A stretch of 51,946 nucleotides of DNA from a bacterium (GCA_019912885.1 JAIOHV010000069.1:1-51946), one strand, 5' to 3'. Numbered from the stretch's first letter, positions 1 through 44,128 are shown. Numbers and translations are program-made. The notes: a model not told the origin generated them from the letters alone.

Positions 1-56
1 GCCGCGATCGCGCCCGCCGGTCCGCCGCCGACAACGGCCACGTCGATCGTCCGCAT
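1..56 (-). CDS. FAD-dependent oxidoreductase, geranylgeranyl-reductase-like (N-terminus only)
   Basis: Only the first 18 codons are in the window; the gene runs off the left edge. The ATG is at 56-54, and the protein begins with a beta strand followed by the dinucleotide-binding loop VVGGGPAGA, the GxGxxG-type FAD motif. Short starts of this form are typical of the geranylgeranyl reductase family, but also of many other flavoproteins, so the subfamily is inferred from context: the three genes upstream on the same strand encode a GGGP synthase, a radical SAM enzyme and a membrane methyltransferase. If it is a reductase, it would saturate isoprenoid chains. It is separated from the methyltransferase gene by 113 bases that carry a short heptamer repeat. 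Confidence 0.6.
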   Translation of the reverse strand, partial: MRTIDVAVVGGGPAGAIA

Positions 57-68
57 GGACGGAAATTC

Positions 69-96
69 TTCAATCTTCATTCTTCGATCTTCAATC
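69..96. repeat. Heptamer repeat array (TTCAATC-type, family A)
   Basis: Four consecutive 7-base units of the form TTCAATC / TTCATTC / TTCGATC / TTCAATC sit in the 113-base gap between the flavoprotein and methyltransferase genes. The same heptamer, in either orientation, recurs at 21481, 24774, 28381, 28521, 31222 and 48388. Confidence 0.7.
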
Positions 97-169
97 GCAT
101 CGGGCGTGCGCTCTCGCCCTTATTCCGGAACCGCGACCGGCACGGAACGGGTACGGGGGTTCATCGCCT

Positions 170-886
170 TCATTCCTCCACGGCTTTCGCCGCGCGCGCG
201 TTTCGCGCGAAATGCAGAATCACCCAACCGACCGGTCCGGCCGCGCCGATAAGCACGCCGTATCCGAGCACGCCCGTCACGGCGCACACGAGAAATCCGG
301 GCACCAGCGGCAGATACAGGAAATTGTTCAGTACGCCCTCGCGCCAATTGACGCCAAGTGCGATCGCGCCCTCGTAAGCGCGGGGCCGGCAGACAAGGCG
401 CGGCACCGCGTCGCGAAAACGCGCGTACGCGTCGCCGCGTGCCGCGAGTAGCGCGGCCTCCTCGTGGCGCATCAACACCGGGTAGATGAACGCAAGCAGC
501 GCCAGCATCGCGATGGCGCCCGCCGGAGGGACGACAAGAGCCATCGTGCCGAGCGAGACGATGTCCGCGGCGTAGATCGGATTGCGCAGATGCGCGTATG
601 GCCCCGCGACAATGAGGCGATCGGTTCGCACGTCGAACGCCATCATCCGCGCGGCGCCGAGCGTGCCGCCCGCCCACACGCGAAGAAACGATGCGCCCGC
701 GTTCATCGCGGCAAGCGCAAGGTAGTTCACCTGACGCACGGCGGCGACCGGCGCGCCAAGCCACGCGGCGGCGAGGTCAATCGCCTGCCGGTTGTCGAAC
801 AGATAGGCCGAAAACCCTGCCGCCGCGACGACGCACGCGGCCTCCACGCGATGACGAAACACGAAGCGCCCGACGGCGCCCTTCAT
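170..886 (-). CDS. Isoprenylcysteine carboxyl methyltransferase-like membrane methyltransferase
   Basis: This 238-residue polytopic membrane protein carries the signature of the ICMT/PEMT family of SAM-dependent membrane methyltransferases: GPYAHLRNPIY at residues 95-105, then RHEE at 140-143 and a GDAY...VPR stretch at 151-163, which in the family bind SAM. Several hydrophobic segments lie before and after. The ATG at 886 overlaps the TGA of the radical SAM gene (ATGA), and a longer reading upstream would run through that gene, so this start is favoured. The family methylates carboxyl, hydroxyl or amine groups of lipid substrates. Being coupled to a GGGP synthase gene suggests an isoprenoid lipid substrate, but this is inference; protein prenyl-cysteine methylation is not expected in bacteria. 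Confidence 0.8.
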   Translation of the reverse strand: MKGAVGRFVFRHRVEAACVVAAAGFSAYLFDNRQAIDLAAAWLGAPVAAVRQVNYLALAAMNAGASFLRVWAGGTLGAARMMAFDVRTDRLIVAGPYAHLRNPIYAADIVSLGTMALVVPPAGAIAMLALLAFIYPVLMRHEEAALLAARGDAYARFRDAVPRLVCRPRAYEGAIALGVNWREGVLNNFLYLPLVPGFLVCAVTGVLGYGVLIGAAGPVGWVILHFARNARAAKAVEE

Positions 887-2202
887 GGCGGATAATCCAG
901 GCCGAGCCGGTGATTCTTGCGGAAGCCGAGGTTGAGCGCGGTCTGCGTTCCCCAGGTGACGAGATCGAATCGCTTCCATCCCGCAAGCGATCGGCGTGCG
1001 ATCTCGCGGCGGCGATAAAATTTTTCGCGGCAGTGCGCCGCGCCGGCGTAAAGCTCGTCCACGCTCATCCTCGCGGGGCGGAAGACGACGTGGTTGCAGT
1101 CGTAGTGCGACCAGTCGAAGTCGAAAATGCGCCCCTCCTCGATCAGCCTCGCGTAGAGCGGCGTGCCGGGCATGGGCGTGACGATGCCGATTTGCGCCAC
1201 ATCCGCGCCGATCTCGTCCATCATCGCGAGCGTTTCGTCGAACACGTCGGGCCCGTCGTCGTCGAAGCCGAACATCAGCCCGACCTCGACGAACATGCCG
1301 CGATCGTGAAAGCGCCGCATCGCGTCGGCGTATTGCGCGACGATGTTGTGCCGTTTGTTCGATTCGGCAAGCGCGGCCATCGACACGGTCTCCAGGCCGA
1401 CGAACACCGCGCGCACCTTCGCGTCGCGCGCGGCATCCATCACCTCGTCGTCAAACGCCATGTCCATCGTCGTCTGGATGCCGGTGTATTTTTTCAGCGG
1501 CGCGAGCGCGCGAAACGCCTTGAGCGCGTAGTCGCGGTCGCCATAGATATCGTCGTCGGCGACCATGAGATGCCAGCGGCGCAGGTTCGGAAATTCCGCG
1601 CGCACCTCGTCGATATCGCGTTGCAGGAACCTTCCGCCCGCGAAGGCGTGCACCGAGCAATAGTGGCACTTGTAAACGCACCCGCGCGTGAACTGGATCA
1701 TGTCGAGCTGCGGATAGTGGCGGTTCGTGAAGATGTCGCGCCGCGCGGCCGGCACGCTGATTTTTCGCGTTCGCGCGGTGCCGTCGTATTTCGATTTCAG
1801 CGTGCCCGCCTCAAGATCCAGGCACAGCGCTTCCCACACCGCCTCGCCCCAGCCGATGACGATCGCATCGGCATGCGCGGCCGCCTCGTCGGGGCACGCG
1901 GTCGGGTGCAGTCCGCCGAGAATCACCGGGATGCCGCGTTGGCGGAAGATACCGGCAAGCTCGTACGCGCGCGGCGCCAGCGCCGTCAGCGCGCTGATCG
2001 CCACCGCGCCGGTGCGGTGCGTTTTCGGATCCCATACGTCGAGCACCTCGTCGATCGTCTCGATCTCGAAGGGCGCGGGCGTGGCCGCGGCGATCGTCGC
2101 GAGGCCGAGTTTGTAGTAGTGGAAATACGACGTGCCGCGCGGGCCGTGTCCCGGCCGCCGGCGCGAGACGCTCGACGCGGGCGCGACGAGGGTGATCTTC
2201 AT
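883..2202 (-). CDS. B12-binding-type radical SAM enzyme
   Basis: The 439-residue protein has an N-terminal Rossmann-like cobalamin-binding-type domain (about residues 1-140, including VILGGLHPT at 93-100) and a radical SAM barrel with the iron-sulfur motif C175-VYK-C179-HY-C182. Later segments such as GLMFGFDDDG and the PMPGTPLY motif are usual in this superfamily (BchE/hopanoid-methylase type). The start ATG at 2202 overlaps the stop of GGGP synthase, and its stop overlaps the start of the methyltransferase, so the three are translationally coupled. Known relatives methylate unactivated carbons, form rings or join carbon chains; the lipid context suggests modification of an isoprenoid chain, which is inference. 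Substrate unknown. Confidence 0.85.
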   Translation of the reverse strand: MKITLVAPASSVSRRRPGHGPRGTSYFHYYKLGLATIAAATPAPFEIETIDEVLDVWDPKTHRTGAVAISALTALAPRAYELAGIFRQRGIPVILGGLHPTACPDEAAAHADAIVIGWGEAVWEALCLDLEAGTLKSKYDGTARTRKISVPAARRDIFTNRHYPQLDMIQFTRGCVYKCHYCSVHAFAGGRFLQRDIDEVRAEFPNLRRWHLMVADDDIYGDRDYALKAFRALAPLKKYTGIQTTMDMAFDDEVMDAARDAKVRAVFVGLETVSMAALAESNKRHNIVAQYADAMRRFHDRGMFVEVGLMFGFDDDGPDVFDETLAMMDEIGADVAQIGIVTPMPGTPLYARLIEEGRIFDFDWSHYDCNHVVFRPARMSVDELYAGAAHCREKFYRRREIARRSLAGWKRFDLVTWGTQTALNLGFRKNHRLGLDYPP

Positions 2203-2978
2203 GCCGCGCCCCGAGGCGGCGCCGCGTGCACCGCGCCCGCGAGTTCGGCGACGATTCCGGCGACGTTGTCGCACGACTCGATCGCCGTGCCGGTGATGAC
2301 GATGTCCGCGCCGGCGCGCACCGCCGTCGCGACCTTTTCCGCGTCGCGCAGCCCGCCGCCGACGATGAGCGGGCCGCCCGCGCGCGCGGAGACGTATTCG
2401 ATCATCGCCGGACGCACCGGCGCGGGCGAGCCCGATCCGGCGTTCAGGTACACGAGAGGAAATCCGAACGCGCGCGCGGCGAGCGCAAAGGATGCGGCGC
2501 CCTCGACGTCCGTGGGATCGAGGAGCTCCGCCTGGCCGACGCGTCCCGCGGTGCCGCCGGGTTCGACAAGGATCATCGCGCAGCCGACTGCCGGCACCCG
2601 ATGCGCCGCGAGGAAGCTCGCGGCCCGCGCCTGCTCGCGCACCACGAAACGCACGTCGCGGCTGTTGAACAGCGAAAGGAAAAGCACGCCGTCCGCTCCG
2701 GAGACGGTCGCGGTCGCGGCACTGGAGGGAAACAGGAACACCGGCGTGCGTTCGCCCGCGCCGTTGAGGCTTTTTTTGACGATCTCGACGCAGCGGCCGA
2801 CAAGCGGGCCATTCACGTCGTCGGAGCCGCCGACAAGAAATGCGTCCGTGCCGCCGGCCACCGCGCCGTCGATTACGCCCGCCAGCGCATCCGGTTCGTG
2901 CGCGCACGGATCGATGGCGGTGATGTGCAACCGGCGATACACGAGCGACTGCGAGAAAAAGTCTCGCGGCTCATTCAT
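2199..2978 (-). CDS. Geranylgeranylglyceryl phosphate synthase (GGGPS/PcrB family)
   Basis: The 259-residue TIM-barrel protein joins a polyprenyl diphosphate to sn-glycerol-1-phosphate by an ether bond, the committing step of archaeal-type membrane lipids. Family motifs are all present: an ITAIDP strand at 19-24, VGGS at 49-52, LVEPGGTAGRVG at 137-148, YLNAGSGS at 177-184 (archaeal form YLEAGSG), VGGGLRD at 206-212 and GADIVITGT at 223-231. The EPGG and YLxAGSG motifs resemble the archaeal/FCB-bacterial group II enzymes more than Bacillus PcrB. The ATG at 2978 follows a GGGGAGGG ribosome-binding site. It heads a coupled set with the radical SAM and methyltransferase genes. No sn-glycerol-1-phosphate dehydrogenase or UbiA prenyltransferase is seen in the window. 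Confidence 0.93.
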   Translation of the reverse strand: MNEPRDFFSQSLVYRRLHITAIDPCAHEPDALAGVIDGAVAGGTDAFLVGGSDDVNGPLVGRCVEIVKKSLNGAGERTPVFLFPSSAATATVSGADGVLFLSLFNSRDVRFVVREQARAASFLAAHRVPAVGCAMILVEPGGTAGRVGQAELLDPTDVEGAASFALAARAFGFPLVYLNAGSGSPAPVRPAMIEYVSARAGGPLIVGGGLRDAEKVATAVRAGADIVITGTAIESCDNVAGIVAELAGAVHAAPPRGAA

Positions 2979-3008
2979 TACAAATACCCTCCCCGGCAAT
3001 CGTGCGGA

Positions 3009-4625
3009 TTATACATCACCTTCGGCGCGCGGCGAACGAAAAATCGCGGCGTGGGGCGTACCCGGCGGCGCGGCATCCGTCCCGCGCGCGCACCATACCG
3101 AAATCATCGTGCCGGACCGGCGTTTTTCGTGCGTTTGCGACAGGCGTTCGAGCACCTGCGTTCGCCCGGCCTGATCGTCGACGGACAGGTTTGCCGCCGC
3201 GACCGCGTCCGGATTGTGGATCTCCGCCGCGACAAGCCTGTCGGGATATCCCATTTTCGACGCCCGAATGCCCCAAAGCAGGGTGTCCGGATGCAGCACC
3301 TGAAGCCGGAATCGCAGCGTCGCGAGTGACGTTTCGGGAATGTCGCCGAAAACGAGCAGATCCCGGACCGGAATCCCGCACGCCTTCGCCTGTCCGTTGA
3401 TCGCCTCCGCGAGCCGGCTGACCTCGCCGGTCGCCAGGTGCGAGCGACCGTCCGGGTTATGATAGATTTTGAACAGGAATTTATCGCGCTCGACGAAGTC
3501 GGCCAAGGGCGAGATGTCACCGATCTGCCGCGCCACCGCCAACAGGATCAGAAGCATCGGCGCCAGGGCCCGAAAGGCACCGGGCAGGCGCCCAAGCACG
3601 CGGCCGGCGATGATCGCCAACGCCGGCGCGGCGTACCAGATATAATAATTCTGCTTTTTCGAAACGAATCCGAGCGCCACGAGCGGCACGAGCGCCCACG
3701 CGACGTACATCCAGAATCCCCCGAAGCGAAAGCGCTTGCTTGCGGCCGGCAGGGCGGCCAGGGTCAGCCCCACGCCGAGCGCGACGAAGAACAACTCTTC
3801 CGGATAAAGAAAAAACGATGTCGACGTTCCCGTTTCGGGCGGCAGATCCATTTCGATGCCGTAATACGGAATCATGATCGCAAGCCGGTCCACGCCAAAG
3901 CGCACGACGATCGCCGTCACCGCCGCGACAGCTCCCGCGGCGATCCACGGCGCTTCGCGGCGAAGCGCAAGCGACGGCGCGATCCGCGCGATTTGCACGA
4001 GATACACCAGGTAGATGGCCGCGAAGCTCATCATGGCGATAACGAAATTCGTGAAGGTATGGGCCATAAGCGCGTCGACCGCGGGCAGAAAGTAGAGCGG
4101 CCACGCCGGCCGCCGCGCGTTAGGCTCGTCGCCGCGGTCAAGCCACCCCGCCGCGAGCAGGAGAATGAGCGCGTGGACGTTATGCCCCTCGATCACGCGC
4201 GACATGGACATGACGACGGGTGTTGACGCGACCGCGGTCGCGACGATCACCCGGTCCAAAAGCGCAAGGCGCTTGCGCCCGATCGCCAGCGCGGCGAAGT
4301 AGATCGCGACCAGAAAGATTTGCCCCGAAAGACGCATCGTCCGAACGGAGGGACCGGCGATCGCCGCCACCGCCGACGACGCGGCATAGGCGACGCTGAA
4401 TCGCCAGTTGTTGTTTTGCGTATCGACGGAAAATTGATTGTCGGACGCGCGAAGCACCTCCTCGGTAAACCCCATGTATTTGTGCAACGCCGTGAGCTGA
4501 TTGGGGTGGGGAAACCCGCGAACTCCCGGACCGTCGGTCAGCGTGACGAACACGTTGATCCCGATAAGCGCGACGATCGGTAGCACCACGGCGGCCACGC
4601 GCCTTTGCAGCGACGCGCGAATCAT
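3009..4625 (-). CDS. Polytopic membrane protein, GT-C glycosyltransferase-like (tandem copy 2)
   Basis: This 538-residue protein has about ten hydrophobic segments and a soluble C-terminal third. It is a tandem duplicate of the next gene upstream (4622-6238): the two have exactly the same length and share a periplasmic-loop block (SDNQFSVDT..NNWRFS) and a SRVIEGHN-type segment. The latter resembles the SR....D stretch of PMT/ArnT-type GT-C transferases, but the usual acidic pair of the first loop is not conserved between the copies, so glycosyltransferase activity is only a suggestion. ATG 4625 overlaps the stop of its paralogue (ATGA). Only 30 bases separate its TAA from the GGGP synthase start, so it may share that transcript. 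Confidence 0.75.
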   Translation of the reverse strand: MIRASLQRRVAAVVLPIVALIGINVFVTLTDGPGVRGFPHPNQLTALHKYMGFTEEVLRASDNQFSVDTQNNNWRFSVAYAASSAVAAIAGPSVRTMRLSGQIFLVAIYFAALAIGRKRLALLDRVIVATAVASTPVVMSMSRVIEGHNVHALILLLAAGWLDRGDEPNARRPAWPLYFLPAVDALMAHTFTNFVIAMMSFAAIYLVYLVQIARIAPSLALRREAPWIAAGAVAAVTAIVVRFGVDRLAIMIPYYGIEMDLPPETGTSTSFFLYPEELFFVALGVGLTLAALPAASKRFRFGGFWMYVAWALVPLVALGFVSKKQNYYIWYAAPALAIIAGRVLGRLPGAFRALAPMLLILLAVARQIGDISPLADFVERDKFLFKIYHNPDGRSHLATGEVSRLAEAINGQAKACGIPVRDLLVFGDIPETSLATLRFRLQVLHPDTLLWGIRASKMGYPDRLVAAEIHNPDAVAAANLSVDDQAGRTQVLERLSQTHEKRRSGTMISVWCARGTDAAPPGTPHAAIFRSPRAEGDV

Positions 4626-6238
4626 GGCAACGCCGCGGCGATGCCGGGGCTTTTCGGGCACCACAAGCGCAAGTCCGCCCCCAAGTCCGCCGGCACGTGC
4701 GATTTGCGCAGCACGCGGCGAACGCGGTCCTGGTCGTCGGAATGAAAGTACGAACGCGCGGGCACATCCGAAAGCACGGGATGCAGAAGTTCCACGGCCG
4801 CGAGCGAGCGGGGATAGCGCCTGACCTCCGGGCTGATCCCGAACGTCTCGCGCGTCGGATCGTCGCGCAGCATCACGAAGTTCAACACCAGAACGAAGTT
4901 TTCCGAGGCGTTGCCGAACAACAAGATCGCGCGCCCGGGGCGATCGCAGCTCTGGTCGAGCTGTTCGATCTCGCGCGCGTATGCGGCAACGATATCGGGC
5001 TCGATGTAGAGGCGCGCCGTCAGATCGGCGTAGACTCCGTGGTAGTACACTTGGCGGTCGATCCAGTCCTCCGCGGGCGTGATGTCGCAAAGGTGCCGCC
5101 CGGCCGCCGAAAGGAGGAGAAGCGCCGGAATCGCGATCTTGATGCGCCGCGGCAAGTGCCATGACACACGCGCCGCGATGATCGCGACGGCCGGCGCCGC
5201 GTACCAGACGTAGTTGTTGTGTTTTTTTGCCATCAGAGAAAGCACGGCAAGCGGCGCCAGCGCCCAGGCGCCATACACCCAGAAACCCTCGAATCGATAC
5301 CGCTTCCACAGCGCGGGAACGGCCGCGAGCGTCAGGCCGAGCCCGACGGCGCCGAAAAACAGCGCCTGCGGATAGGCCAGCGGATGGCGCGGTAGGTGCG
5401 CGGCGACGGCCTGGTTCGTCTCCTCGCCGTAATACATCAGCGTGATGTAAAGGGACTGCGCGCCGAACCGGACGACGAGCGCCGCCGCGAGCGCGACCGC
5501 CGAAAGCGCCACCCGCCAGGACTCGTGCGCGAGCACCTTTTTCGGCGACGAACGGACCGCCGGCACGATAAACGCCGCGTACATCGCCGCGAAGCTGATC
5601 ATGGCGACCACGGCGTTCGTGAACATGTGCGTGACCAGCACATCGATCGCCGGCAAAAAATAAAACGGTAGCGGAAGATCGCGCGAACGCCGGTTGTCCC
5701 GGTCATCCAGATTCATCGCGGCCAGCACGAGCACGAGTACGTGCAGGTTGTGGTCCTCGATCTCGCGCGACATCGAAAGCACCGACGGCGTCACCGCGAC
5801 CGCCGTCGCGACGATGAGGCGATCCGAAAACGCAAACCGCTTGCGCCCGATCGCCAGTGCGCAAACGAAGATACCGACAAGAAACACCTGCCCCGACAGG
5901 CGAATCGCCTCGATCGATGTTCCGCCGATGCGCATGGCGAGGGTCGAAGCCGCGTAGAGCGGGCTGAATCGCCAGTTGTTGCCCATCGTATCGACGGCAA
6001 AATCGTTGTCCGTCGCGCGCAACTGCGTCTCGGTCAACCCGAAATACTTCTGCAAGGCGGTAACGTGATAGAGATGCGGAAAACCGCGAACGTTCAGCTC
6101 TTCGTCCACGACGACATAGGCGTTCATCGCCACGAGCGCGGCGATCGTCAGGCTCAAGGCGGCGATAGCCCGCCGCCTCGACGACGCATTCGCGTCCGCG
6201 CCGGGTGCCGGCTCAGGGAAGCGGTTCAAGATGCCCAT
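4622..6238 (-). CDS. Polytopic membrane protein, GT-C glycosyltransferase-like (tandem copy 1)
   Basis: This 538-residue multi-spanning membrane protein is a paralogue of the following gene. Conserved blocks include ATDNDFAVDT followed by NNWRFSPLYAAS in the first extracytoplasmic loop, LSGQVFLVGI, IGRKRFAF.DRLIVATAVAVTP, SMSREIEDHN, FYFLPAIDVLVTHMFTNAVVAMISFAA and WYAAPAVAIIA. Its first loop contains a DEE triplet that the other copy lacks. The start at 6238 (MGILNRF) lies 26 bases inside the end of the upstream SGNH gene; an earlier in-frame start at 6271 would extend the overlap. Likely an inner-membrane glycosyl or lipid-linked sugar transferase, given the superfamily resemblance and the envelope-type neighbours, but this is not proven. 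Confidence 0.75.
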   Translation of the reverse strand: MGILNRFPEPAPGADANASSRRRAIAALSLTIAALVAMNAYVVVDEELNVRGFPHLYHVTALQKYFGLTETQLRATDNDFAVDTMGNNWRFSPLYAASTLAMRIGGTSIEAIRLSGQVFLVGIFVCALAIGRKRFAFSDRLIVATAVAVTPSVLSMSREIEDHNLHVLVLVLAAMNLDDRDNRRSRDLPLPFYFLPAIDVLVTHMFTNAVVAMISFAAMYAAFIVPAVRSSPKKVLAHESWRVALSAVALAAALVVRFGAQSLYITLMYYGEETNQAVAAHLPRHPLAYPQALFFGAVGLGLTLAAVPALWKRYRFEGFWVYGAWALAPLAVLSLMAKKHNNYVWYAAPAVAIIAARVSWHLPRRIKIAIPALLLLSAAGRHLCDITPAEDWIDRQVYYHGVYADLTARLYIEPDIVAAYAREIEQLDQSCDRPGRAILLFGNASENFVLVLNFVMLRDDPTRETFGISPEVRRYPRSLAAVELLHPVLSDVPARSYFHSDDQDRVRRVLRKSHVPADLGADLRLWCPKSPGIAAALP

Positions 6239-7253
6239 TGTCGCGCAACCACGCCGCAAGGTGTTCGGCATACCAGGTCATGACGTACGCCGGCGGATGG
6301 AGATCGAGGTACTCCGCCGGCTTGCCGCCGGCTGTCAGAACGAATTCGGGAATGTCGGCGGCCGATCGGTATCGGCGAAATTGCAACGGATCGGCCCCGG
6401 GGCAAAAAAACAATACCACCCGCGCGCGATCCCGGGCGGCCTCCAGAAGCCGCTTGTACTCGCGAACGCCGTTCGCTTCGTGCGTGGGATCGACGCCCCA
6501 TCCCTTTCCGGCCACCAGCAAGCGCGTGAGAAGCGCGAGTCGGTAAATCCTCACCGCGCCGGCGGCGCGAAGCGTGGCGGGCGTCGGCTTTCGCTCGCCG
6601 GGAATTTCGCCGAGCACGTTTAAAAGCCGCGTCATGATGGTCGGATCGCGTTCCACGTACGGCGCGAGCCGGGTTCCGGGAAGCATCGTCGGGCCGGTCA
6701 CGTTTGACATCGCGAAAATGATGAGATCGGGCGAATACTTCCCAAGCGCCTCGTGCGCGACGACGGCCATCGACTCCGAGCCATACGCGGCCGTGCCGAA
6801 ATTCCAGACTTCGTAGCGCCCCGGTTCGCCCGCGTTGAGGCGCTCCTCGAGGCGCGCCGGCCACGTCTGGGTATCGTCAAGCCGGACGCCGTACACATTG
6901 GAGCCGCCCACGGCGACGATACGAAACACGCCCGGCGGCTTGATGTCGGTGTATTCGGTTCCGCGCGCTCCGTGCCGGTTGATGGTGACGCGCCGGCGCG
7001 GGTTGCCGCGCTCGATGACGGCGCCCGGTTTCAGGCGAAAAAACAATCGCGGGTCCGGATCGGGAACGTGCGCCTTGGAATCGACGTCCTGATAGAACAT
7101 CAGCAACTCCGCCATGCCGATATCGATCGCGAGCGCGCGCACGCCGATCTCGGCGACCAACAACGCGGCGACGCAACCGAAGGCGAATGCCAACGCGCGC
7201 CGCGGCAATCGTGCGACGAAGATCCGCTTGGCGCGCGGCGATCGTCCCATCAT
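6213..7253 (-). CDS. Membrane-anchored SGNH/GDSL hydrolase-like protein (tandem copy)
   Basis: The 346-residue protein has one N-terminal membrane anchor (about residues 15-40) and an extracytoplasmic SGNH-like domain. The nucleophile block reads VAVGGSNVYG (GGS instead of GDS), preceded by KPPGVFRI, and a late LDLHPPAYVMTWYAEHLA block supplies the usual histidine. It is a tandem duplicate of 7291-8337; the last 40 or so codons are still nearly identical at DNA level. Family members are esterases or acyltransferases of envelope polysaccharides and lipids. The start is taken as the ATG at 7253 (MMGRSPRAK), with no strong ribosome-binding site. Confidence 0.8.
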   Translation of the reverse strand: MMGRSPRAKRIFVARLPRRALAFAFGCVAALLVAEIGVRALAIDIGMAELLMFYQDVDSKAHVPDPDPRLFFRLKPGAVIERGNPRRRVTINRHGARGTEYTDIKPPGVFRIVAVGGSNVYGVRLDDTQTWPARLEERLNAGEPGRYEVWNFGTAAYGSESMAVVAHEALGKYSPDLIIFAMSNVTGPTMLPGTRLAPYVERDPTIMTRLLNVLGEIPGERKPTPATLRAAGAVRIYRLALLTRLLVAGKGWGVDPTHEANGVREYKRLLEAARDRARVVLFFCPGADPLQFRRYRSAADIPEFVLTAGGKPAEYLDLHPPAYVMTWYAEHLAAWLRDNGHLEPLP

Positions 7254-7290
7254 CGTCGTCCGCGTCCGACGGTGCGCGCATCGGCGATCG

Positions 7291-8337
7291 TCACGGCGCC
7301 TCCGACGGTGCAAGAAGTCCCTGGTCGCGCAACCACGTCGCGACGTGTTCGGCATACCACACCATGACGTAGTCCGGCGGGTGGATGTTACGGTATTCGT
7401 CGGGCATGTCGTCGGCGGATAGATCGTATACAGGAATGTCCGGGTGGTGGAGGTAATCGGTAAAAAGGTGGCGGTGCGCGGCGGGGCAGAAAAACAACAC
7501 CAGGCGCGCCCGGCCGCGCGCGGCCCGAACGAGCCGGTCGTACTCCTTCACCCCGTTGATCTGATGCAACGGATCGTCATCCCATCCGCGATCGTGAAAG
7601 CGGGTGAAACCGAAAATCGCCAGGCGATAAAGGCGAATCCGTTCCATCAGGCGCATCTGCCGGGGCGTCGGATACCGGTATCCGTCGATGCGGCCGAAGG
7701 CGCGAATCAGCCGCGTCATGATCTCGGGATCGCGCTCGATATACGGCCCCAGATCGGTGCCCGGCAGCATCGCGTTTCCGTTGGCGTTCGACGGCGCGAA
7801 GATGACGAGGTCCGGCTCGAAGCGGTCCAGCACTTCGCGCCCGAGGACGCCCATCTGCTCCTGGTTGTACGCCGAGATGCCGAAATTCCAGACCTCAAAG
7901 CGCCCGGGCTCGTCCGCGTTCAGGCGTTGGTCAAGCCGCGCGGGCCAGGTTTCGTTGTCGTCAAGCTGCGCGCCGTAAACGTTCGATCCGCCGAGCGCCG
8001 CGATGCGAAACACGCCCGGCGGCTTGACGGCCGTGTATTCCGTTCCGCGCGCGCCGTGGCGGTTGACCGTCACGCGGTATTTCGGAACCTCGTGTTCATA
8101 AACGGCGCCCGGTTTCAGGCGGAAAAACAGACGCGGATCGGGATCCGCCATGTGAACCGACTTATCGACGTCCTGGTAATACATCAACGTCTCGGCGACG
8201 CGGATGTCGAGCGCGAACAGGCGCACCGCGATCTCCGCGGCCACGACGCCGAGCGCGAATCCGAAAACCATCGCCAGCAGTCGCCGGGGCAGGCGGAACC
8301 AGAAGAGGCGCTGCACACGCACCTCGCGCAAAATCAT
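7291..8337 (-). CDS. Membrane-anchored SGNH/GDSL hydrolase-like protein (tandem copy)
   Basis: The 348-residue paralogue of the following gene has an N-terminal transmembrane segment (about 15-40), then PDPRLFFRLKPGAV, NRHGARGTEYT, KPPGVFRIAALGGSNVYG with the presumed catalytic serine, and IHPPDYVMVWYAEHVATWL near the end. The GGS in place of GDS is shared by both copies. The ATG at 8337 follows a GAGGCGG ribosome-binding site, which decides it over upstream in-frame starts. It lies 13 bases after another SGNH gene, so three consecutive genes encode extracytoplasmic SGNH-like proteins. The substrate is unknown; O-acyl group transfer or removal on a surface glycan would fit. Confidence 0.82.
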   Translation of the reverse strand: MILREVRVQRLFWFRLPRRLLAMVFGFALGVVAAEIAVRLFALDIRVAETLMYYQDVDKSVHMADPDPRLFFRLKPGAVYEHEVPKYRVTVNRHGARGTEYTAVKPPGVFRIAALGGSNVYGAQLDDNETWPARLDQRLNADEPGRFEVWNFGISAYNQEQMGVLGREVLDRFEPDLVIFAPSNANGNAMLPGTDLGPYIERDPEIMTRLIRAFGRIDGYRYPTPRQMRLMERIRLYRLAIFGFTRFHDRGWDDDPLHQINGVKEYDRLVRAARGRARLVLFFCPAAHRHLFTDYLHHPDIPVYDLSADDMPDEYRNIHPPDYVMVWYAEHVATWLRDQGLLAPSEAP

Positions 8338-8350
8338 CGTCCGCCTCGCA

Positions 8351-9319
8351 TCACGGCGCGAGAAAGGGCGGTAGGGCGACAAACGTCGCCGGCTCGCCGG
8401 GGGCGCCGAGTCGCCGGTGCCAGTCCAGAAATATGGCCGCGAGCTGCTTTTGTCCCGCGTCGTTCAGGTGCCATCCGTCGGCAAGAAAATACCCCCGTTC
8501 GCGAAACCACTGAACCGTCGCGGGATCGTTGAGGACCAGATACGAAATCCCGAGCGCTTCCGCCGCCGCGGCGGTATCGACCGAATTTTCGCCGATATAC
8601 GTCCCCGCGAGCAGGCGGATCCCCCGCGCTCGCGCGATGTCCGCGATCCGGCCGAGCAGGCGCCCCGTCTCGGCGACGATGAAATCGAGATACGGCTCGG
8701 CCGTGCGCGAGATGTCGAGCGCCTCGATCACGAAATTCTGGCATCCGAAAAAACAATCCGCGCGCTCGGGATTCGACCAGATCGGAATGCGCCCGAGCAT
8801 GTTGATCGAAAAGATCCAAGCGCGTGGCAGCCGGTACGCCAGGCGAAGCCACGCCGGCGCGCCGGCGCCGGCATTCGATCCGAGATACGCGCGATGAAAT
8901 TCCACGGAGTCCGGATTGTTTACGGATGAGATGATCATGATGTCGTCCGGCGTCTGCTTCGACTCATCCAGAAACGACTCCAGTTGGCGAATCTGCGACA
9001 GCGTCGTCGATCCGGCGACGGCGATGTTCACCGTCTCGACCGGCGTTTCGTATCCCGTCCGTTTCGCGCGATCCGGCAGATACGCCCAGTAACCCACGTG
9101 CGATTCGGCGTGACGCCCCTCGGTGAACGAGTCGCCCATGAACAATATTTTGCGGGATTCGGTTTCGGCAAAACGGCCGGAGCGCGCGTTCGCCAGAACG
9201 CCGTCGAGCCAATGCGTGAAAAATGCGTATTGAATCTGCGCGGCGACGGCCGCGCCCGCGAACACCACGACAAACGCGAACGCCACGCGAACGCCGATCG
9301 GCAAACGACGCCGCGTCAC
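8351..9319 (-). CDS. SGNH/GDSL hydrolase family protein
   Basis: The 322-residue protein starts with GTG at 9319 (GGAG about 11 bases upstream), has a signal-anchor (about residues 8-28) and a canonical SGNH domain: block I ILFMGDSFTEG with the catalytic serine, a glycine/asparagine region VNIAVAGSTTLSQ and ISSVNNPDS, and block V DGWHLNDAGQ with the catalytic Asp and His. It differs from the two downstream SGNH genes, which have degenerate GGS blocks, so it is not a recent copy. It is the first gene of the minus-strand run that continues with small spacings through the GGGP synthase cassette to the left edge. Confidence 0.85.
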   Translation of the reverse strand: MTRRRLPIGVRVAFAFVVVFAGAAVAAQIQYAFFTHWLDGVLANARSGRFAETESRKILFMGDSFTEGRHAESHVGYWAYLPDRAKRTGYETPVETVNIAVAGSTTLSQIRQLESFLDESKQTPDDIMIISSVNNPDSVEFHRAYLGSNAGAGAPAWLRLAYRLPRAWIFSINMLGRIPIWSNPERADCFFGCQNFVIEALDISRTAEPYLDFIVAETGRLLGRIADIARARGIRLLAGTYIGENSVDTAAAAEALGISYLVLNDPATVQWFRERGYFLADGWHLNDAGQKQLAAIFLDWHRRLGAPGEPATFVALPPFLAP

Positions 9320-20635: not shown

Positions 20636-21391
20636 ATGAATATACCGAATTTCCGTTTTTGCTGGATGTATCCCCTTTATGCGGCCGCCACCGTGTACTA
20701 CGGGTCCGTCGCGATCGCCGGGACGCTCGTTCGCCGCGACTCGGACATCCACGACCGTTGCGCGTTGCGTTGGGCGCGTTTCACCGCGAGGCTCTGCGGA
20801 CTGCGTCTGACATGCCGCATGGCGCCCGCGTTCGACCCGAATCGAAGCTACGTCATCGTCAGCAATCACCTGAGCACGATCGACATTCCGGCCGTCTTTA
20901 TCTCATCCCCGGTCCCGATCCGCTTTTTCGCCAAGAAGAACCTGTTCAAGGTGCCGATATTTGGGTGGGCGCTGTCGATCACCGGGCACGTGCCGGTGGA
21001 CCGGCGTAAGGGACGCACCGATTTTTCTCGTCTGGACCGCGTCTGCGAGCAGCTCAAGCGCCGCCGGCGCTCGGTCATGGTGTTCGCGGAAGGCACGCGC
21101 ACGCGCAACGGCCGCCTGCAACCGTTCAAGATGGGCGCGTTTCATCTGGCCAAACATCTGAACGTTCCTGTCGTGCCCGTCACGCTCAAGGGTACGGCCG
21201 CGATCAACCCGCCCAAACGCTACGCGTTGTATCCGGGCGACGCCGAGATCGTCTGGCACCACCCGATCGAACCCGAAGGGCTCGACGCGCACCAGCTCGC
21301 GCGCCTTGCGCGAAACGTGATTGCCCGCGAGCTTGGCGAGCCCGAGGAGCCGGAGGAGCAGTTCGTCGAGCCAAAGGTGGCGGCGGGCTGA
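20636..21391 (+). CDS. plsC: 1-acyl-sn-glycerol-3-phosphate acyltransferase
   Basis: The 251-residue protein contains the acyltransferase motif HxxxxD (H78-LSTI-D83 in [11 protein letters not shown]), the [18 protein letters not shown] block and the substrate-binding [10 protein letters not shown] motif (151-160). One N-terminal hydrophobic segment anchors it to the inner membrane. The enzyme acylates lysophosphatidic acid to phosphatidic acid, so ordinary bacterial ester phospholipids are made by this organism, which matters when weighing the GGGP synthase locus. The C-terminal tail is Glu/Pro-rich. The start is the ATG at 20636; an upstream in-frame ATG at 20591 is possible. Confidence 0.92.
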
Positions 21392-42841: not shown

Positions 42842-44128
42842 GTGGCCGATACGCGCCCCGGACAGAGCGTCGAGAGGTCGAAGGTCGTCCTGGTGGGATT
42901 CCAGTCCGGGAAAGACCGTTACGCCGCCATCAAGAAACTTTCGGAAATCCTTGGCATGGACTTCGAGGAGGCCTCCGAGATCGCGGACACCGCGCCAGTC
43001 GATCTCGTCCCCTCGTTGCCAACCGAAGCGGCGGAGGCCTTGTCCGAAAAGCTCGTCGACGCGGGCGCGGCCATCGAGGTCCTGCCGCTGACAAAAAACG
43101 CGAAGTTCTGCGAAATTCACCCGCACCGCTTCGCGCGCGCCTCGTGCAAGGTCTGTGGCAAATACGTCTGCATCATTTGTCTCCACGGTTCCAAGGGGAA
43201 ACTTTTTTGCCCGGAGCACTACGAACTCTGGAAGCAGAAGCGCGTGCTGCGCGCGGTCGGCGGCGCGTTCCTGGTGTTGCTTCTCGTTTTCCTGGGCATC
43301 CTGTTTCGGCATCCGATCACGCGGATGGCGCGCTATCTCGGCCCGCACCACGTTCAGAAGGTCGGCGTCATCTTCGTCACGCAAAGACCGGGCGAGGCCA
43401 AGGGCGCGTATTACATGCGCGTGTTCAAGGACACGACGGCGCAGGACTACCTCCCCGGCGAGGAGCACACGGTCGCCGACATTGGCAACTGGTACAACAC
43501 GGAATACCGGCGCATCGCGGGGAAAAAGCCGGAGGACGGCGGCGTGATGGATCTTCATCTCACCGGCACGTTCGACATCGATCTGCCGCCGCCGATGCCG
43601 CACGCGCGTGACGAGATGTCGTACAAGGCGTTCGCGCAATATTCGGAGTTTCGCGGCTGGTTTCAGAGCTTGATGAACGAGCATCTTCTGGATGCCTTCA
43701 AGACCGATGACATCGTCGTGGCGGTGGAGCTCGTCGACGAAACCGGCTTCGAAAAAGACTTCATGGAAGAGCTCGGCTTCGCCGCCGGCGGATATGCCTA
43801 CGTGCGCGTGCCGGTCGTCAACCTCAAGTGGTCCGCGGAGTATTACGTCGCCGCTGTCGCGCATTACATCGGCCGCTCCATGGGCGCCACGCTGAAACTG
43901 AGCGACAAGGGCTACCCGCTCGACCCGCACGGCCTCGCCGAACCCGCGCAGACGCCGAAGTATCCGCAACAGAAGGCGTCGTTGATGTCCTGCTATCGCC
44001 CGATCCAGCCGTTCGAAATCGAACGGCCCTCGTCGCTCGATGAATACGTCATTTCACCGCTGACCGCGTGGGAACTCGGCTGGATCGGTAAACGGCGTAT
44101 CAGCGCGTTGTATCCGGACGTGAATTGA
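42842..44128 (+). CDS. L7/L12 C-terminal-like, zinc-finger and membrane-anchored metzincin-like fusion
   Basis: The 428-residue protein starts with GTG (AAAGGAG six bases upstream), 33 bases after the propeller gene. Residues 14-82 resemble the ribosomal L7/L12 C-terminal domain (AAIKKLSEILGMDFEEASEIADTAP). Residues 90-126 form a B-box-like zinc site (C90, H93, C102, C105, C110, C113, C123, H126). A transmembrane helix follows at 137-156. The outer domain has HYIGRSMGA (341-349) and LMSCY (381-385), reminiscent of the HExxHxxG helix and Met-turn of metzincins, but the first His and the Glu are missing, so any peptidase activity is doubtful. I know no standard family with this layout. Confidence 0.7.
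   Translation: MADTRPGQSVERSKVVLVGFQSGKDRYAAIKKLSEILGMDFEEASEIADTAPVDLVPSLPTEAAEALSEKLVDAGAAIEVLPLTKNAKFCEIHPHRFARASCKVCGKYVCIICLHGSKGKLFCPEHYELWKQKRVLRAVGGAFLVLLLVFLGILFRHPITRMARYLGPHHVQKVGVIFVTQRPGEAKGAYYMRVFKDTTAQDYLPGEEHTVADIGNWYNTEYRRIAGKKPEDGGVMDLHLTGTFDIDLPPPMPHARDEMSYKAFAQYSEFRGWFQSLMNEHLLDAFKTDDIVVAVELVDETGFEKDFMEELGFAAGGYAYVRVPVVNLKWSAEYYVAAVAHYIGRSMGATLKLSDKGYPLDPHGLAEPAQTPKYPQQKASLMSCYRPIQPFEIERPSSLDEYVISPLTAWELGWIGKRRISALYPDVN

Follow-up and report, generated by a model that had tools for sequence, protein, structure and literature searches.

A GGGP synthase cassette with B12-radical SAM and membrane methyltransferase genes suggests a variant of bacterial ether-lipid biosynthesis in candidate phylum FEN-1099

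Enzymes of the GGGP synthase (GGGPS) family join sn-glycerol-1-phosphate (G1P) and a prenyl diphosphate into a prenylglyceryl phosphate ether. The archaeal ether-lipid pathway comprises G1PDH, GGGPS, DGGGP synthase (DGGGPS), the CDP-archaeol synthase CarS and geranylgeranyl reductase (GGR). In bacteria, GGGPS and DGGGPS activities have been shown for Ca. Cloacimonetes and mixed membranes have been proposed for the FCB group (PMC7852524); G1PDH is missing in most FCB phyla that have GGGPS (PMC6431249). Bacillales PcrB, a heptaprenylglyceryl phosphate synthase, belongs to the same superfamily and, according to PMC9179154, makes a one-chain, G1P-based ether lipid, thus providing a precedent for a single isoprenoid ether chain in bacteria. 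The genome described here has in common with the archaeal pathway a GGGPS, a G1PDH homologue and a reductase of the GGR superfamily. It differs in that CarS and a UbiA gene tracking the cassette are missing, and in that genes for a B12-radical SAM protein and a PEMT/ICMT-type methyltransferase are coupled to the GGGPS gene. As in the FCB superphylum and Ca. Cloacimonetes, an archaeal-type GGGPS occurs in a bacterium with ester-lipid genes. However, the Cloacimonetes GGGPS adjoins DGGGPS and no G1PDH was detected there (PMC7852524), whereas this one adjoins radical SAM, methyltransferase and reductase genes and a G1PDH homologue is encoded in the genome. These features suggest that the gene set is a variant of bacterial archaeal-type ether-lipid biosynthesis with a putative product, undescribed as far as we found. 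A search of part of the literature yielded no description of the set, so that its novelty is relative to that coverage; neither "radical SAM" nor "FEN-1099" occurs in the main text of PMC7852524.

The window, that is, the whole stretch of 51,946 nucleotides analysed, is the complete contig C69 of a 4.8-Mb genome (G000) in 230 contigs. Given its kinship to relatives, the host most likely belongs to FEN-1099, a candidate phylum for which the names Ca. Lernaellota or Podoxiota have been proposed (PMC13248872). One relative, G002, belongs to the same family; its assembly seems to contain frameshifts. The cassette genes are all encoded on the minus strand, in the order GGGPS, rSAM1, methyltransferase and flavoprotein start (Table 1). 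An earlier note on this DNA had claimed that the first three are coupled by ATGA stop/start overlaps, and both were found, at 2199-2202 (GGGPS/rSAM1) and 883-886 (rSAM1/methyltransferase). The flavoprotein that it had placed after the methyltransferase is also present, but 114 bp away and without overlap, the gap carrying the dispersed repeat. In the relatives G004 and G005, in contrast, there is a 23-bp overlap between the two genes and the repeat is missing. Since the window is a whole contig ending at this point, the flavoprotein is represented only by codons 1-18 (MRTIDVAVVGGGPAGAIA). Contig C89 (6.5 kb) terminates within the reductase gene and carries the last 198 residues of the protein; a B12-radical SAM gene on the opposite strand and a gene for a C45-type hydrolase come next. 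Because this gene order matches that of G005 and G004, C69 probably adjoins C89, with about 136 codons missing between the two contigs.

Table 1. Features of the cassette at the left end of the window
Feature	Coordinates	Strand	Remarks
GGGP synthase (geranylgeranylglyceryl phosphate synthase family), 259 aa	2199..2978	-	ATG at 2978; PF01884, TIGR01769, PDB 6nke
rSAM1, B12-binding/radical SAM protein, 439 aa	883..2202	-	PF04055, PF02310, CxxxCxxC
Membrane methyltransferase, PEMT/ICMT superfamily, 238 aa	170..886	-	PF04191, PF04140
Flavoprotein, geranylgeranyl-reductase superfamily, codons 1-18	1..55	-	GxGxxG start; truncated by contig end
Spacer, methyltransferase/flavoprotein, with dispersed repeat at about 67-97	56..169		Numerous further contigs of the genome carry the repeat

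The GGGPS scored 115.9 bits on PF01884 (cut-off 23.9) and passed the GGGP equivalog TIGR01769 with 171.7 bits (cut-off 161.55), whereas the PcrB model gave a low score on it (30.9 bits, cut-off 260). Its best PDB relatives, aligned over the full length, are the GGGP synthases 6nke (E 2.9e-50), 6jo3 and 4mm1, and residues D23, D45, E139-T143, Y177-G183 and G207-G209 are invariant across three genera. The enzyme is predicted, from its sequence, to form the ether bond between G1P and a prenyl diphosphate. For the PcrB system, we know of no described radical SAM, methyltransferase or reductase module. In a tree of 46 sequences, the four FEN-1099 enzymes clustered together (support 100/99) and were joined by two Bacillota MAGs (99/97) and then by Poseidoniia archaea (98/92); all of these fall with the archaea and apart from the clade of FCB bacteria. 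The earlier note had mentioned group II-like homologues in FCB lineages, but this enzyme is not of the FCB lineage: the FEN-1099 enzymes occupy a different branch and a forced grouping with the FCB sequences was rejected (AU test, p-AU 0.001). The branches of this tree are long and its root was not inferred, so that it does not settle the donor or the direction of any GGGPS transfer.

The flavoprotein had been described as geranylgeranyl-reductase-like from its start alone, and the longer sequences agreed with this assignment. The C89 fragment and the cassette reductase of G005 share 55% identity; the full-length G005 sequence scored 157.7 bits on TIGR02032, just below the cut-off of 158.8. 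This ortholog keeps GxGxxG, YAWVF...GVG (YxWxF), the Cys of CAGG, RLILD (RxxxD) and LIGD (LxGD), motif kinds that are listed for archaeal GGRs (PMC10821996); the Pro after YxWxF is replaced by Asn, while nearly all other GGR motifs are present. Judging from the model score and these motifs, the flavoprotein is a member of the geranylgeranyl-reductase superfamily. Its orthologs in the cassette genomes are 53-61% identical, compared with at most 40% over most of the length for other matches. A paralog in G004 adjoins a MenA-like gene, as would suit a family of enzymes that reduce prenyl chains.

The second gene, rSAM1, presents the architecture of B12-dependent radical SAM proteins, with a radical SAM core (PF04055, 60.2 bits) and a B12-binding domain (PF02310, 40.7 bits), both above cut-off. 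CxxxCxxC lies at residues 175-182 and DxHxxG is missing. Orthologs in G002, G004 and G005 are 61-80% identical, and other long matches reach at most 38%. The lipid enzymes HpnR, HpnJ and ladderane TIGR04072 have this domain architecture in common with the cassette proteins, but rSAM1 stayed below their equivalog cut-offs (60.1 bits against 650, 50.1 against 577.6 and 48.3 against 360, respectively), and none of the cassette radical SAM proteins tested reached any equivalog cut-off. For rSAM2, the ladderane model TIGR04072 was the best or second-best match (100.6 and 109.2 bits). A PDB search for radical SAM relatives returned a single weak, uninformative match.

The methyltransferase barely exceeded the cut-offs of PF04191 (PEMT, 29.0 bits) and PF04140 (ICMT, 25.5 bits), and its structure prediction had a pLDDT of 43. 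As with rSAM1, no match to a functional equivalog was found. One reading takes it for a true ICMT acting on a lipidated C-terminal Cys, so that secreted proteins with an acidic linker and a ...GCGC end would receive the isoprenoid lipid of the cassette; such tails are indeed frequent in the genome and the C45 protein of the cassette has one. However, similar acidic, Cys-ending tails occur in G001 and G003, both without the cassette, and the protein is not a recognised ICMT, scoring 31.5 bits on the equivalog NF040696 against a cut-off of 160, which makes this reading very improbable. Orthologs of the methyltransferase (48-57% identity) occur exactly in the genomes with GGGPS. Outside the class its relatives are remote, the best in 386 genomes searched being 35% identical. 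The closest of them, in G349, directly adjoins a YegS-type lipid kinase gene encoded on the same strand, a neighbourhood that speaks for a lipid substrate.

Co-occurrence was compared across seven genomes of the class (G000-G006). GGGPS, rSAM1, methyltransferase and reductase were all present in four of them (G000, G002, G004 and G005) and none of the four was found in G001, G003 or G006 (completeness 99, 98 and 84%). The conservation of gene order that the earlier note had named as a test was seen in G005 (L055) and G004 (L056), where GGGPS, rSAM1, methyltransferase and reductase are followed by rSAM2 on the opposite strand, C45, rSAM3 and, again on the opposite strand, rSAM4. The order thus recurs in two further genera together with extra B12-radical SAM genes and a C45 hydrolase gene, and the rSAM1/methyltransferase ATGA overlap is common to three genera. 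In G002 the set is split but complete: GGGPS, methyltransferase, C45, rSAM3 and rSAM4 lie on its contig C23, and rSAM1, reductase and rSAM2 on its contig C2, where rSAM1 and the reductase overlap. A matching four-gene pattern that persists in a genome with physical separation argues for a single pathway, within the small number of genomes compared (n=7). Homologues of rSAM1, the methyltransferase, C45 and rSAM2-4 were absent at the other GGGPS loci searched (63 named loci and 16 further GGGPS regions, E<=1e-4). Among the bacteria and archaea examined, the cassette has so far been seen only in FEN-1099.

This patchy occurrence, in four of seven genomes, would also suit a product other than a bulk membrane lipid, namely a prenyl-glycerol metabolite that is specialised or secreted, comparable to the role of MoeO5 in moenomycin biosynthesis. 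The GGGPS-like enzyme would then start the molecule, the B12-radical SAM proteins would decorate it, the methyltransferase would cap it and C45 would hydrolyse or acylate it outside the cytoplasm. Such a product fits the neighbours of the core genes, with as many as four genes for B12-radical SAM proteins and a C45-type protein with a conserved Cys, and MoeO5 is a remote PDB relative of the GGGPS. Nevertheless, the synthase matched the GGGP equivalog and MoeO5 only weakly (174.4 and 31.6 bits, respectively), a G1PDH homologue and a prenyl reductase suit a lipid, and neither a transporter nor NRPS/PKS-type genes were seen next to the core genes. We therefore regard a metabolite as unlikely, though worth keeping in view.

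The earlier note had recommended a search for a G1P dehydrogenase, and a G1PDH homologue was found at C23:5269-6279. Its best model, NF002022, gave 126.6 bits, far below the cut-off of 413; its top PDB matches are solved G1PDHs. The Asp, His and His positions that serve as metal ligands in G1PDHs are conserved with archaeal homologues, in an alignment from which rows L150 and L151, taken on the wrong strand, were left out. All four cassette genomes carry the gene, as does G001. The UbiA-type DGGGP synthase that the note had also looked to is a different case, as neither of the two candidates follows the distribution of the cassette. The genome has six UbiA genes: two for decaprenyl-phosphate phosphoribosyltransferases, one MenA-like, one fused behind IspH, and one each on contigs C199 and C83. 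The C199 protein is DGGGPS/chlorophyll-synthase-like, and that of C83 is paired with a GGR that exceeds its family cut-off. CarS (PF01864) was found in none of the seven genomes of the class, the archaeal controls being positive.

If either UbiA were the DGGGP synthase and CdsA replaced CarS, the host would have a near-standard archaeal diether pathway to which the cassette adds late modifications. The score of the C199 protein on the DGGGP synthase model (86.6 bits) and the pairing of the C83 gene with a GGR agree with this, and Cloacimonetes likewise lack CarS, with bacterial CdsA proposed as a substitute (PMC7852524). On the other hand, 86.6 bits is far under the model cut-off of 296, the C199 gene occurs in genomes that lack the cassette, while the cassette-bearing G004 has no clear ortholog of it, and the C83 pair is present in six of the seven genomes irrespective of GGGPS. 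A full diether pathway hence seems improbable.

On balance, we lean towards the view that, in part of FEN-1099 (Lernaellota), the product of the module is a modified isoprenyl-glycerol ether lipid. The scheme that follows is inferred as regards the substrates, the product, the order of the steps and what rSAM1 and the methyltransferase do. The G1PDH-like enzyme, encoded elsewhere in the genome, would supply G1P, which the GGGPS would ether-link to geranylgeranyl (or longer) diphosphate. The flavoprotein would saturate the isoprenoid chain, and rSAM1 may alter it at an unreactive carbon by C-methylation or C-C bond formation, between which its enzyme class does not distinguish. The membrane methyltransferase could methylate the polar part, that is, the phosphate, a glycerol OH or the head group. 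As CarS is missing and no UbiA tracks the cassette, neither a second ether chain nor normal CDP-archaeol chemistry finds support, and archaeol is a less likely product than a mono-ether lipid or an ether/ester hybrid. More tentatively, and as a possibility rather than an expectation, FEN-1099 may possess an independent bacterial route, so far seen in this phylum only, in which an archaeal-affinity GGGPS, a B12-radical SAM protein and a membrane methyltransferase yield a reduced, C-modified, O-methylated isoprenyl-glycerol lipid with a G1P backbone beside ester lipids.

Archaeal-type ether-lipid chemistry in bacteria, known from the FCB group and from Bacillus/PcrB, would thereby reach a further phylum, in this case with a GGGPS of another branch and accompanied by a G1PDH homologue, unlike most GGGPS-bearing FCB phyla (PMC6431249). 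The locus offers a concrete four-gene set for heterologous expression. It is also relevant to the lipid divide, to mixed membranes and to where the unassigned isoprenoid ether lipids of environmental samples come from. The earlier note had proposed a modified isoprenoid-glycerol lipid made alongside ester lipids; the gene identities, the conserved coupling and the capacity for ester lipids speak for such a putative product, but not for an archaeol-type second chain. None of the outcomes that the note had named as refuting its reading came about: the flavoprotein belongs to the geranylgeranyl-reductase superfamily, a G1PDH homologue exists and relatives keep the gene order. Ester lipids, which the note had linked to plsC, are expected because the window encodes a PF01553 acyltransferase (PlsC-type family) at 20666-21391, with a score of 98.8 bits.

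In the window, the group of genes upstream of the GGGP synthase is separated from it by a gap of only 30 bp. Two of the five genes encode tandem-duplicated membrane proteins, 44.5% identical to each other and neither with a Pfam match, while the other three encode GDSL/SGNH-like proteins, two of which are 60% identical. In neither G004 nor G005 is this group kept upstream of the cassette. In both of these genomes a corrinoid adenosyltransferase gene (CobA/BtuR) adjoins the cassette, together with a pair of genes resembling those for the Kdo-synthesis enzymes KdsD and KdsB. At the other end of the cassette in the window, the short dispersed repeat TTCAATCTTCATTCTTCGATCTTCAATC lies between the methyltransferase and the flavoprotein, and it was found again at many sites of the same genome (contigs C80, C72, C135, C126, C180 and others).

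Features located in the window and in related loci
Feature	Location	Genome	Remark
Five genes directly upstream of GGGP synthase	window 3009-9286	G000	same strand as GGGP synthase
Dispersed repeat	window 60-101	G000	
CobA/BtuR, KdsD-like and KdsB-like genes	L055 (cassette locus) 3231-6623	G005	adjoin cassette
CobA/BtuR, KdsD-like and KdsB-like genes	L056 (cassette locus) 2213-5563	G004	adjoin cassette
Cassette-reductase relative	L086 347-1408	Poseidoniia archaeon	
Cassette-reductase relative	L088 593-1630	Poseidoniia archaeon	
Membrane glycosyltransferase-like, UbiA and GGR genes in a row	L058 (contig C83) 3521-7457	G000	
IspH domain and UbiA-like membrane domain	L063 (contig C133) 5170-6921	G000	single 583-aa frame; IspH 259 bits
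Cys-tailed protein	L059 2391-3860	G000	
Cys-tailed protein	L060 78-2615	G000	
Cys-tailed protein	L058 10713-11987	G000	
Cys-tailed protein	L063 1633-3672	G000	
Further Cys-tailed proteins	L065, L166, L167, L176, L183	G000	
Protein with ribosomal L7/L12 C-terminal domain	window 42842-44128	G000	428 aa; 34.5 bits, residues 15-80

Relatives of the cassette reductase (27-29% identity) are carried by two Poseidoniia archaea, about 9 kb away from the GGGP synthase gene of the same archaea, and the GGGP synthases of both are placed near the FEN-1099 enzyme in the tree. The UbiA enzyme of contig C83, whose first motif is odd (NSWGGLKTD), occurs in six of the seven genomes of the class; the neighbouring geranylgeranyl reductase (GGR) scores above the family cut-off, and a GGR adjoins this type of UbiA in at least G000, G004 and G005. 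On contig C133, one frame is an apparent IspH/UbiA-like fusion. The radical SAM superfamily is expanded in each of the seven genomes, with about 28-45 radical SAM matches per genome to rSAM1, the B12-binding/radical SAM protein of the cassette.

Many large proteins, mostly signal-peptide-like, are closed by an acidic, Asp-rich linker and a terminal Cys motif (variants ending in GCGC, CCGC, GGCF or CCG), with no membrane helix C-terminal to the motif in these tailed proteins. Such tails are also present in G001, G002, G003, G004 and G005, including genomes that lack the cassette, and are not confined to cassette bearers. The linker and motif together look like a signal for sorting or lipidation at the C-terminus that belongs to the candidate phylum. 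Finally, the protein with the L7/L12 C-terminal domain represents an unusual setting for this domain.
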